A stretch of 64,000 bases of DNA from Candidatus Izemoplasma sp. Lineage in GTDB: Bacteria; Bacillota_I; Bacilli_A; Izemoplasmatales; Izemoplasmataceae. Positions 54,153 to 59,831 of the stretch are shown here, piece after piece (position 1 is the first letter of the stretch; every line of letters begins with the position of its first letter). Under the pieces are notes generated by a model that searched no databases, was not told where the DNA came from, and saw nothing but the letters and a program-made list of their open reading frames with translations. Position numbers and translations under genes: made by a program. Where the stretch lies: assembly GCA_036172455.1 (NCBI GenBank), contig JAXKVY010000001.1:248001-312000 (forward strand), written 5' to 3'.

Positions 54153-54546
54153 GGACTCACTTACTTTCTTATCGATACTATGACATGCTCTTATAGTAGC
54201 GTTAATTTGGTATGAATAATTTTATCATAAAAAAGTGTCTTGTGCAATTTTTAATAGGACAAAGAAGCAATATCTGAGTATGTATTTTAACTACACTATG
54301 TGCTCATTAGTCTGATTTTTTGATATACTATCAATCAATATTTTTTAAGATCTATTTTATTAAATTGATAATTCACTTAGCGTATCCATATCAATACCAA
54401 TGGCGGATTTAAAACTGTTTGATTCATCTGTTAAATATTGTATATGACAGAATAGAATTGTAGAAATATGACGGAAAGAAATGTCGGTTCTACAATTCTA
54501 TTTTTTTGATATAATCGAATCAGTAAAATGATTGGAGGATATCAAA
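54153..54546. other. Region upstream of the IS21 element with long inverted repeat and promoter
   Basis: No gene. At 54452-54465 and 54488-54501 a perfect 14-bp inverted repeat, ATAGAATTGTAGAA / TTCTACAATTCTAT, is followed by T7, which would act as a plus-strand terminator ahead of the element. A TATAAT (54510-54515) lies 31 bases before the istA start. Near-repeats TGACAGAATAGAA and TGACGGAAAGAAA may be transposase-binding repeats of the left end. Confidence 0.5.
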
Positions 54547-55993
<1,447 letters not shown>

Positions 55994-56817: not shown

Positions 56818-57468
56818 TTATTGATAGGCTAGTTTAAGATGTGCAATATCGTTGTACTGCGGTTCTTCATATGCATTTTGTACATATGGGTACATTAGTT
56901 GATTAGTTGAAGTTGCATGTCCAAAGTATCCTAAAGCATGTCCCATTTCATGGCACGAAACCTCATTCCATTGACTTTCTGAAAAGTCGCTTGTTTGTGC
57001 TGAATTCATTCCGGAAGTATCCCATATTAAGAAAATTTGGCTGTAGGCCATTCTATAAATATATATTAGTTTATCGTCAAGGTTCATATAAGTATAATCA
57101 GGTATGGAATAGTGTGACATAAAAGTAACCCCCACAGCATAAGGATTTATTCCTAGTCCCGAAGCCTGACTTCTTGTAAAACACCCTAGCGATATATCTT
57201 CGTTAGAAGTAACTTCATTCATTGTAAAAGAAAAATTAGATTCCCATCTATAGATTGCATTATCAAAAGTGTTTTCAAAATCAGCTGAATCCATTCCGCA
57301 TGTGATATTTTGATACTCATAAGATATTGTCGACGAGTCAAAATATCCAACTTTGTTATCATCTGAATGCCAATATGGAGTAACTAAGTACGGATAAGCA
57401 TTAACTTCAATAAAACTGCTTGCAAAGAAAACACACATGAATGTAATAATAATTAATACTTTTCTCAA
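56818..57468 (-). CDS. Secreted matrixin-like (metzincin) zinc metalloprotease
   Basis: 216 residues from a TTG that follows GGGAGGTTATCTA; signal peptide VLIIITFMCVFFASSFIEVNA. The catalytic region is HEMGHALGYFGHA with a downstream Met-turn-like NQLMYPY, as in matrixins (M10). The third His is one residue later than in the standard HExxHxxGxxH motif. The upstream region has AIYRWESNFSF-like and SQASGLGINP segments seen in small bacterial matrixins. It lies between two IS3 ends with a lipoprotein gene, suggesting horizontal arrival. Confidence 0.75.
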   Translation of the reverse strand: MRKVLIIITFMCVFFASSFIEVNAYPYLVTPYWHSDDNKVGYFDSSTISYEYQNITCGMDSADFENTFDNAIYRWESNFSFTMNEVTSNEDISLGCFTRSQASGLGINPYAVGVTFMSHYSIPDYTYMNLDDKLIYIYRMAYSQIFLIWDTSGMNSAQTSDFSESQWNEVSCHEMGHALGYFGHATSTNQLMYPYVQNAYEEPQYNDIAHLKLAYQ

Positions 57469-57616
57469 TAGATAACCTCCCCTCCTATAATAAAATAAGA
57501 CCAACATACAACTATGTCAGTCTTGGTGTTAAATTCAAATTTAACATATCATACATCCTAAATTTTGTCAATACTAAAGAAGCAATATATTTCACATTTA
57601 AATTAGTGATGATTAA

Positions 57617-57842: not shown

Positions 57843-58432
57843 CTATTTCATAGCAACAAATATAATAGCAAAATCGGTTTCAAATTTATCAATTAATTTC
57901 ATCCCAGAGTTAATAATGTATTTTTCCGTCGCTATCGGATCATCTGGATAAATTTCAATAATCCTATTGCCATTATTTATTGTTGAACTTTGATTCTTAT
58001 CAATAGATAAAACAAATCTACCGTTTTCATTGATCAAATCATATATTTTTAATATAGCATCTTTTTTATTCTTAAAGTGCATGAATGTTAGAGATGAGTA
58101 AACAACATCATATTTTGATGTGAAATGGTATTTTAAAAAATCATCACAAATTAGAATAACATTTTCATAAGCGAGATTTTTTTAGCTCTTTCAATTGTTT
58201 TTTCAGAAAAATCAATTCCTGTAAAGCTCCTACAAAATGGTACAACATTTGTTGCAATTCGTCCCGTTCCTACGCCTACTTCTAAAACTGTTTTAGTCGG
58301 ATCTAATTTCATTGCGTTAAGAAAACTTTGACCATCCCACTTTTTTATGTGCTCTTTCATTTCTATAGAATCATAAAATGGATCATTATTTTCTTCTATC
58401 AACATATCACAATGTTTCATTATTTTACTCAT
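57843..58432 (-). pseudogene. Class I SAM-dependent methyltransferase, frameshifted
   Basis: Frame 1 starts MSKIMKHCDMLIEENNDPFY and holds SAM motif I, TVLEVGVGTGRIATNV, and FTGIDFSEKTIERAKK. It breaks at an A7 run (58177-58183); the other frame resumes with NLAYENVILICDDFLKYHF, YDVVYSSLTFMHFKNK and GRFVLSIDKNQ and ends at TAG 57843. One added A restores a ~196-residue protein with all methyltransferase motifs. Decay after IS activity and sequencing error are both possible. The substrate cannot be told. Confidence 0.78.
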
Positions 58433-58520: not shown

Positions 58521-58841
58521 TTATTTATCTAATTTATACAACAAGTCTGGTATATTTACTGTAGCAATGTCATAAATGATATTTAGTTTAATACCTTCGT
58601 ACTCATGTGATATCATATTTCTTAATCCAATGATACTTGGCCAATGAATAGAATTATAAAATTGTTTTGTCTCATTTGAAAGTTTCTTTGCTGTTTCACC
58701 GATTTGTTCTAGGTTTAATATAACTGCATCGACTTTCTCGTCGTTGTACTCAAAGTCTGTGAATGTATCGACTTCTTCCATATATCTGCCGATTTTCTTT
58801 GCATACTTAATGATACGATCAATATATGTCTTATCTTTCAT
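58521..58841 (-). CDS. hepT: HepT-like HEPN ribonuclease toxin (DUF86)
   Basis: 106 residues, all-helical HEPN domain. The RNase motif is R74-NMIS-H79 followed by E-Y81, giving Rx4HxY; in HepT/MntA systems this Tyr is the site modified by the antitoxin with AMP. The segment VDAVILNLEQIGETAKKLS is typical of DUF86. It overlaps the antitoxin gene by 11 bases, so translation is coupled. The toxin would cut RNA (tRNA in studied cases) when not modified. Confidence 0.9.
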   Translation of the reverse strand: MKDKTYIDRIIKYAKKIGRYMEEVDTFTDFEYNDEKVDAVILNLEQIGETAKKLSNETKQFYNSIHWPSIIGLRNMISHEYEGIKLNIIYDIATVNIPDLLYKLDK

Positions 58842-59325
58842 AAATCAGTACTCCTGTCTTATTAATTTCCTCATCTATTTTTGAATATTCTTGAATAGTT
58901 TTATTACTTAGCACTTCAACTTTCTTCTTCAATTTTCCTCTTAGTTGTTCAACAAATTCAAAATACTCTAAACCGTATAAATCAGACTCCATATATAGAT
59001 CAACATCACTATTTTGTGTAGCTTGACCTTTGACATATGATCCAAACAAATATACTTTTTCAATATCATAATTTTTAGCTATTTTACTTATATTTTCTTT
59101 TATTGTTAAGTATGACAAAACACCCGTGAATTCATCGATCTTAGCATATTCTTCCAATTTTACTCTTAGTAATCTATCCATAACTAAGTCAATTGTCCAC
59201 TCGCTGGGTTTCCTTACTTCTTGTTCCCAGTTTCTTAATGTTTTTACTGGTACGCCAGTTAATAATGAAACCTGCTCTTGTGTTAGTTCTAAATTGTCTC
59301 TTATTATTTTAATATTATTAGACAT
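58831..59325 (-). CDS. mntA: MntA-like nucleotidyltransferase antitoxin fused to an N-terminal HTH
   Basis: 164 residues from the ATG after TAGGTGGTG. Residues ~5-45 form an XRE-type HTH (LTQEQVSLLTGVPVKTLRNW), ~80-164 the minimal nucleotidyltransferase with GS-x10-DVD (95-109; LFGSYVKGQATQNSDVDLY). MntA proteins add AMP to the HepT tyrosine to neutralise it. Here the fused HTH can bind the palindromes in its own promoter, giving autoregulation that stand-alone MntA lacks. Antitoxin first, toxin second, overlapping. Confidence 0.88.
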   Translation of the reverse strand: MSNNIKIIRDNLELTQEQVSLLTGVPVKTLRNWEQEVRKPSEWTIDLVMDRLLRVKLEEYAKIDEFTGVLSYLTIKENISKIAKNYDIEKVYLFGSYVKGQATQNSDVDLYMESDLYGLEYFEFVEQLRGKLKKKVEVLSNKTIQEYSKIDEEINKTGVLIYER

Positions 59326-59347
59326 AGTATTCACCACCTACAGCATT

Positions 59348-59376
59348 ATTATATACCCCAATGGGGTATTTGTCAA
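59348..59376 (-). promoter_or_regulatory. mntA-hepT promoter with operator in the spacer
   Basis: Minus strand consensus promoter: -35 TTGACA (59371-59376), exactly 17 bases, -10 TATAAT (59348-59353). The spacer is filled by the palindrome described next. Predicted transcription start is ~15 bases before the ATG. Confidence 0.85.
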
Positions 59377-59400
59377 TGGATTTATACCCCATTGAGGTAT
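59353..59400. promoter_or_regulatory. Two palindromic operators of the mntA-hepT system
   Basis: ATACCCCAATGGGGTAT (59353-59369) and ATACCCCATTGAGGTAT (59384-59400). Their centres are 31 bases apart, about three helical turns, so two HTH dimers could bind on one face. The first blocks the -10/-35 spacer and the second lies just upstream of the -35. Confidence 0.8.
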
Positions 59401-59480
59401 AAAATAAAAGGCTCCCATTGATCAGAGTGTATGGTTTCTATACCATATCTCCAACTTTTGGAAGCAACTTCAAATTCAAA

Positions 59481-59831
59481 TGGTGGAGTTGAGGGGAGTT
59501 GAACCCCTGTCCAAAGTAGCCGACACTACAGTTTCTACATGTTTAGTTTGATGTAAGTTTTAATCTACCTCCAAGCATCAAACAACCAAGAAGCAGACGA
59601 GCCTTATTACGTTCAATAACGTTCTGAAGGCGGTAGAACGCTATTAGATCCTAGATCTCTGTACTCAACAATAACGCCCTAGGCGGCATCATGCTGAGCG
59701 CATGCTTATATTAAGCGTATGCTAATTGTGAATTATTGTTTCCGGTTATATTTAACCTAGTGTTTTTACAGCCACAACGCTGACATGCTTCTCTAGCTCT
59801 AAACTACCCTGTCGAATCCATAAACAACCCC
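59481..59831 (-). ncRNA. ssrA: Transfer-messenger RNA (tmRNA)
   Basis: 351 bases. The 5' end GGGGTTG pairs with CAACTCC before the encoded 3' ACCA; GGATTCGACAGGG and GACAGGGGTTCAACTCCCC are the conserved tRNA-like parts. The tag reading frame reads GNNNSQLAYA then TAA (with the charged Ala in front), ending in YA instead of the usual AA. It sits directly downstream of smpB, its protein partner, for rescue of stalled ribosomes. Resume codon GGA is inferred by comparison with Bacillus. Confidence 0.93.

Follow-up and report, generated by a model that had tools for sequence, protein, structure and literature searches.

A HepT/MntA toxin-antitoxin module with a Cro/Xre-type domain in its nucleotidyltransferase antitoxin and paired predicted operators at its promoter

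Organization of the locus

The window analyzed here, a stretch of 64,000 nucleotides from Candidatus Izemoplasma sp., carries a HepT/MntA pair in which the MNT antitoxin also bears a Cro/Xre HTH. This confirms an observation made in a first-pass annotation of the sequence, which had also given the coordinates of the module correctly. The antitoxin gene comes first and the toxin gene second, with an overlap of 11 nt (Table 1). The promoter had been described as a perfect TTGACA-17-TATAAT, and both hexamers do match the consensus throughout (12/12). Its spacer (AATACCCCATTGGGGTA) had been called a palindrome; a perfect 17-nt palindrome, the predicted operator O1, is indeed present, but it does not coincide exactly with the spacer, comprising spacer bases 2 to 17 and the first T of TATAAT. 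The second palindrome noted 31 bases upstream was also recovered (predicted operator O2), with 7 of 8 arm pairs intact and one broken. A hairpin or attenuator function in the transcript was ruled out for both palindromes, since they lie inside and upstream of the promoter and therefore cannot act as RNA hairpins.

Taken alone, a palindrome of this kind proves little, as ~3% of dinucleotide shuffles of AT-rich DNA also yield one (perfect 8-bp arms in 120 nt; P ~0.03). The pair of similar palindromes at the locus gave P = 0.003, the lowest value attainable with 300 shuffles. In a scan of the whole genome with the operator pattern, allowing up to two mismatches, only O1 and O2 matched exactly, and one site with two mismatches was found elsewhere.

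Table 1. Positions of the module, its predicted control elements, and the adjacent ssrA gene (window coordinates unless residues are given)
Feature	Position	Strand	Details
Antitoxin gene	58831..59325	minus	ATG at 59325, stop at 58831; 164 aa
Cro/Xre-type HTH	antitoxin residues 5-42	minus	Pfam HTH_3, 29.5 bits (cut-off, 23)
Recognition helix	within antitoxin HTH		P26-VKTLRNWEQ
Minimal nucleotidyltransferase	antitoxin residues 77-164	minus	Polbeta, 55.2 bits (cut-off, 26.9); NTP_transf_2, 37.7 bits (cut-off, 21)
Toxin gene	58521..58841	minus	106 aa; HepT-like HEPN ribonuclease; PF01934
Shine-Dalgarno region AGGTGGTGA (SD AGGTGG)	59330..59338	minus	Ahead of antitoxin ATG 59325; read from sequence
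-10 hexamer TATAAT	59348..59353	minus	
-35 hexamer TTGACA	59371..59376	minus	
Operator O1 (predicted)	59353..59369	.	Perfect 17-nt palindrome ATACCCCATTGGGGTAT (minus-strand reading), in promoter spacer
Operator O2 (predicted)	59384..59400	.	Near-perfect palindrome ATACCTCAATGGGGTAT, 31 bp upstream of O1
Intrinsic terminator of ssrA, structured	59407..59480	minus	Ends just before O2; context, outside module
ssrA (tmRNA) gene	59481..59831	minus	Directly upstream of module; ARAGORN, Rfam; context

Antitoxin and toxin proteins

Both domains attributed to the antitoxin in the first-pass annotation, an XRE-type HTH and a GS-x10-DxD nucleotidyltransferase, scored above their Pfam cut-offs, and the motif could be read directly as G95-S96-x10-D107-x-D109, with E137 as the third acidic residue. 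In an alignment of 26 relatives, G95, S96, D107, and D109 were invariant. Five close relatives from subfamily A (L003 to L007; subfamilies are described below) carried a glycine at the E137 position, and catalysis may therefore not be conserved in all relatives. Judged by motif spacing rather than by structural superposition, E137 would be equivalent to D71 of Shewanella MntA, which helps to hold a magnesium ion (PMC7641770). An AlphaFold2 model of the antitoxin (pLDDT, 87.8) gave 8xeo, 8xeh, and 7bxo, representing Legionella MNT and Shewanella MntA, as top Foldseek matches (E values down to 1.5e-5); among the matches listed in this search, no solved structure matched the HTH half together with the MNT.

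The toxin scored 74.2 bits against the HepT-like family PF01934 (cut-off, 23.5). The Rx4HxY motif claimed for it was read directly from RNMISHEY as R74-x4-H79-x-Y81, and Y81 had been correctly named as its tyrosine. Across 20 aligned relatives H79 and Y81 were invariant and R74 nearly so. Foldseek E values for the toxin structure model (pLDDT, 93.4) were weak (best, 7.9e-3), and the best 25 matches were all HepT/HEPN chains from HEPN-MNT systems. The protein is presumed to have RNase activity and to be toxic.

Class I HEPN/MNT systems (HepT/MntA, type VII) are defined by adjacent genes for a PF01934 protein with RX4HXY and a PF01909 protein with GSX10DXD (PMC7641770). The neighboring genes in the window matched PF01934 (74.2 bits) and PF01909 (37.7 bits), both over the cut-off; both motifs were present, and in Foldseek comparisons the folds of the antitoxin and toxin resembled those of MntA and HepT, respectively. 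At the level of sequence, the pair qualifies as class I HepT/MntA (type VII) in the published sense. Scores against the NCBIfam models for MntA (NF047752; 44.4 bits) and HepT (NF047751; 40.5 bits) remained below the equivalog cut-off of 60 bits, and by these profile scores both proteins are homologous to, yet outside, the named NCBI families. No other HepT-like genes were found in this genome (99% complete).

In Shewanella, the GSX10DXD protein transfers three AMPs onto Y104 of RX4HXY (PMC7641770). The module anatomy, together with this work, makes AMP transfer to Y81 the most likely activity of the antitoxin: the nucleotidyltransferase domain would adenylylate Y81 of the HepT-like RNase, beside the R-x4-H site, and thereby block the RNase. 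Alternatively, the HTH-MNT protein could neutralize HepT by binding only, in the style of a type II system, with a weak or inactive nucleotidyltransferase and tight transcriptional control instead. The glycine that replaces the third acidic residue in five close relatives would suit such an arrangement, as would the stable complex that Shewanella MntA also makes with HepT, but in Shewanella binding without adenylylation neutralizes poorly (PMC7641770), the alignments show no variation in the antitoxin motif residues or in toxin H79 and Y81, and the window antitoxin retains E137. Neutralization by binding alone is thus considered unlikely at this locus.

Genomic surroundings

The terminator of ssrA separates the module from ssrA transcription. 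A repeat after ssrA (59420-59506) was considered as a possible att or cassette repeat enclosing the module, a reading that arose because the repeat occurs in multiple copies in relatives, one of which (G056) has it flanking the module. The reading was dropped when alignment identified the repeat as a structured intrinsic terminator, copies of which follow tRNA, ssrA, and protein genes. This ~65-nt terminator (GGCTTCC...TTGGAGATATGGTATA...CTCTAAT...GGGAGCC-TTTTT; window positions 59407-59480, minus strand, and L101 and L104 to L110) combines nested helices with a highly conserved interior, and relatives at the order level have several copies of it per genome; none of the Rfam families met its threshold there. 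In one genome (G052), some copies lie directly 5′ of transposase-like genes.

Just downstream of HepT (57843-58432, minus strand), a methyltransferase-like gene is apparently split into two frames, of which searches support the first half only; it is probably a pseudogene. Pieces of an IS21-like transposase gene, recognized by eye, and a matrixin-type metalloprotease are present at 54532-55784 and 56818-57507, which suggests a variable region downstream of ssrA.

Distribution and mobility of the fusion

Homologues with both domains were found in many of 150 relatives, and 52 of 392 genomes from the phylum had matches at an E value of ≤1e-15, mostly near full length. From the 58 HepT-like matches in the 150 relatives, 38 adjoined an HTH-MNT fusion, 7 adjoined an MNT match without the HTH stretch, and 13 were without a BLAST match to the window antitoxin. 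Conversely, 37 of 48 near-full-length fusion matches had an adjacent HepT match; no HepT was called alongside the other 11, some of which may represent contig ends or degraded partners. The survey for HTH-MNT beside HepT that the first-pass annotation had proposed shows an arrangement that is not unique and is common within this part of the Bacilli/Mycoplasmatota (38/58), and no published characterization of it was found in the open-access literature.

L012 (G109:C55) and other HepT-less fusions are apparent orphan HTH-MNT genes with an operator still in the promoter; at L012 the fusion is followed by an apparent acetyltransferase gene. At L021 (G082:C5), a HepT-like reading frame lies beside a fusion antitoxin that is degraded by internal stop codons. 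Two further MNT antitoxins beside HepT (L126, G059:C120; L130, G057:C192) carry a different N-terminal extension (YIxKYNKENYK...R.RK...), and their promoters contain tandem TATGATAnCATA repeats. The extension looks like a ribbon-helix-helix domain, an assignment for which searches of Pfam, NCBIfam, and PDB gave no confirmation; if true, it would constitute a second, independent DNA-binding fusion.

Whereas the window module follows ssrA, that of G056 lies behind a protein gene and that of G254 behind a tRNA-like 3′ end. Among the ssrA loci examined, that of the window was the only one with the module. Similar proteins (nearest, 77 to 91%) were found in other families of the order, which, together with the varied contexts, fits a horizontally moving TA module. 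A scan for related loci with a single protein returned 10 named relatives, and the same method found no relatives in viral contigs. Among plasmids, the window protein gave MNT-only matches in Methanosphaera and the proteins of the two other subfamilies gave none. Among phages there was one full-length HTH-MNT relative (MT836394.1:9486-9947), 52% identical to a subfamily-B protein and encoded in a 10.6-kb record named "Bacteriophage sp." from human faeces.

Comparative analysis of the operators

A total of 49 nonredundant family promoters, including that of the window, were compared with coding stretches of the same genes (n = 49). Paired similar palindromes beat shuffled DNA (P ≤ 0.05) in 38/49 promoters versus 2/49 coding controls, with P values that overstate the evidence because the promoters and loci are related and are not independent samples. 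The two sites of a pair were 30 to 33 bp apart, or approximately three helical turns, in 36 of the 38 significant promoters.

Operator sequences differed between subfamilies. The subfamily A operator, TACCyCAnTGrGGTA, was centered at +9 and about −22 from the spacer start. Its inner-site center fell on the same spacer base in almost every tabulated member, with the exception of a degenerate copy (L047), and the outer site, where present, was usually ~31 bp upstream. Subfamily B had the operator ATGCAATwATTGCAT at about −53 and −21 from the spacer start together with a half-site in the spacer, and subfamily C had one site, CCACTCAATGAGTGG, in the spacer. Among the relatives, L009, L010, L012, and L061 retained the spacer site alone. 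At the level of sequence, the promoter grid is conserved while the operator letters change.

Distances between operators correlated more closely with distances between HTH domains (Mantel r, 0.74) than with those between MNT domains (0.67), and the partial correlations were 0.45 for HTH given MNT and 0.22 for MNT given HTH. Within subfamily B, the residue equivalent to R31 of the window protein tracked the outer dinucleotide of the half-sites: outer bases were AT in 21/32 half-sites where position 31 was I, L, or V, GT in 14/20 where it was K, and AC in 11/12 where it was Q. Both K and Q recurred on separate branches of an MNT-domain-only tree, although the number of independent code events is uncertain, as branch supports were modest and the code was spotted in the same data.

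Covariation between operator and HTH is the mark expected of a protein that reads its own operator. An autoregulated antitoxin would combine a DNA-binding domain with matching operators at the operon promoter, and the module has an HTH_3 domain over the cut-off and predicted operators that are paired, held in register, and covary with the HTH. Autorepression is a reading well supported by comparison. An HTH by itself is no proof of self-regulation, and the palindromes could instead be bound by another host regulator, leaving the antitoxin HTH for another purpose, for instance the sensing or binding of foreign DNA. This is improbable, considering that the operator occurs within the genome only at the module promoter, that operator sequences vary between subfamilies in step with the recognition helix of the antitoxin itself, and that the same layout recurs in unrelated flanks, downstream of ssrA, tRNA, and protein genes. 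Although single palindromes do arise in shuffled DNA at the frequency given above, the matched pairs with constant spacing in promoters, set against their rarity in coding controls, leave almost no room for chance or for a promoter-composition artefact of AT-rich DNA.

Proposed mechanism

Overall, the locus is likely to be a type VII (HepT/MntA class I) module whose antitoxin adenylylates Y81 and, through its built-in Cro/Xre domain, represses the operon via O1 and O2. Given a fused DNA-reading domain and a matching double site in the promoter, a single small protein probably does double duty, disarming the toxin and shutting its own genes off. The HTH, probably as a dimer per palindrome, would bind O1 in the −35/−10 spacer, where RNA polymerase binds, and also O2, which lies on the same face of the helix three turns farther upstream. 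Occupancy of O1 and O2 would cover the promoter and repress the operon, probably cooperatively and probably with HepT bound. More speculatively, a HepT core could join two DNA-bound antitoxin dimers, which would explain the fixed spacing. The first-pass proposal that one protein modifies the toxin and represses the operon has thus gained strong comparative support in its HepT/MntA identity, HTH fusion, and operator reading, while autorepression by an MNT antitoxin proved to have a precedent in SO_3165, as described below.

A broader interpretation is offered tentatively: the module may belong to a widespread Bacilli/Mycoplasmatota branch of type VII systems in which enzymatic neutralization and transcription control are merged in one protein, with exchangeable DNA-reading modules, a position-31 code, a promoter grid of ~31 to 33 bp, and a toxin occupancy or AMPylation state that could be reported to transcription. 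If true, the readable code and fixed grid would let either state reach transcription directly. The module offers a compact system for asking whether a chemically acting antitoxin senses its toxin and reports to the promoter, and the natural HTH/operator pairs form a set for predicting DNA specificity from single residues.

Comparison with known systems

Among predicted TA systems, HEPN/MNT has been described as the most abundant (PMC7641770). Makarova and colleagues noted in 2009 that HEPN/MNT pairs were without an obvious DNA-binding part and suggested a third component in trans (PMC2701414); the HTH-fused branch supplies the missing part in cis. An Xre fusion is not mentioned in the 2013 HEPN survey, from which the word "Xre" is absent. 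No account of an HTH-fused MntA/HepT was found in the open-access literature.

The Shewanella oneidensis pair SO_3166/SO_3165 shares with the window module an antitoxin gene placed first, a gene overlap, GSX10DXD, RX4HXY, and the same folds, and its products assemble as a hetero-octamer containing six copies of HepT and two of MntA (PMC7641770). It also has a two-palindrome promoter: SO_3165, the MntA, has no recognized DNA-binding domain and was reported to bind and repress its own promoter, the activity of which rose 1.6-fold upon operon deletion (PMC4621449). Shewanella MntA differs in being without an HTH and in having two dissimilar palindromes, whereas the window module has a fused HTH and matched predicted operators three turns apart. 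The HEPN-MNT system of Legionella pneumophila (8xeh, 8xeo; PMC11586414) provides the best structural match to the nucleotidyltransferase domain (TM, 0.79 by target length) and likewise has a short MNT, but it is without a DNA-binding domain; no DNA-binding, transcription, or operon-promoter study was found in that paper. In the Xre-MNT TA system of Streptococcus suis, Xre and MNT domains share one locus described as autoregulating, but they are reported to be separate proteins with opposite roles, Xre being the antitoxin and MNT the toxin (PMC8406773).

The type II antitoxin MqsA (YgiT) resembles the window antitoxin in having two domains and a Cro-type HTH like that of the window protein (3fmy/3gn5, matched by the family profile). 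MqsA is not known to carry a nucleotidyltransferase domain, and its cognate toxin belongs to a family other than HEPN. Class I HepT/MntA pairs and autorepression by an MNT antitoxin are already known; the novelty here is the DNA-binding domain built into the antitoxin.
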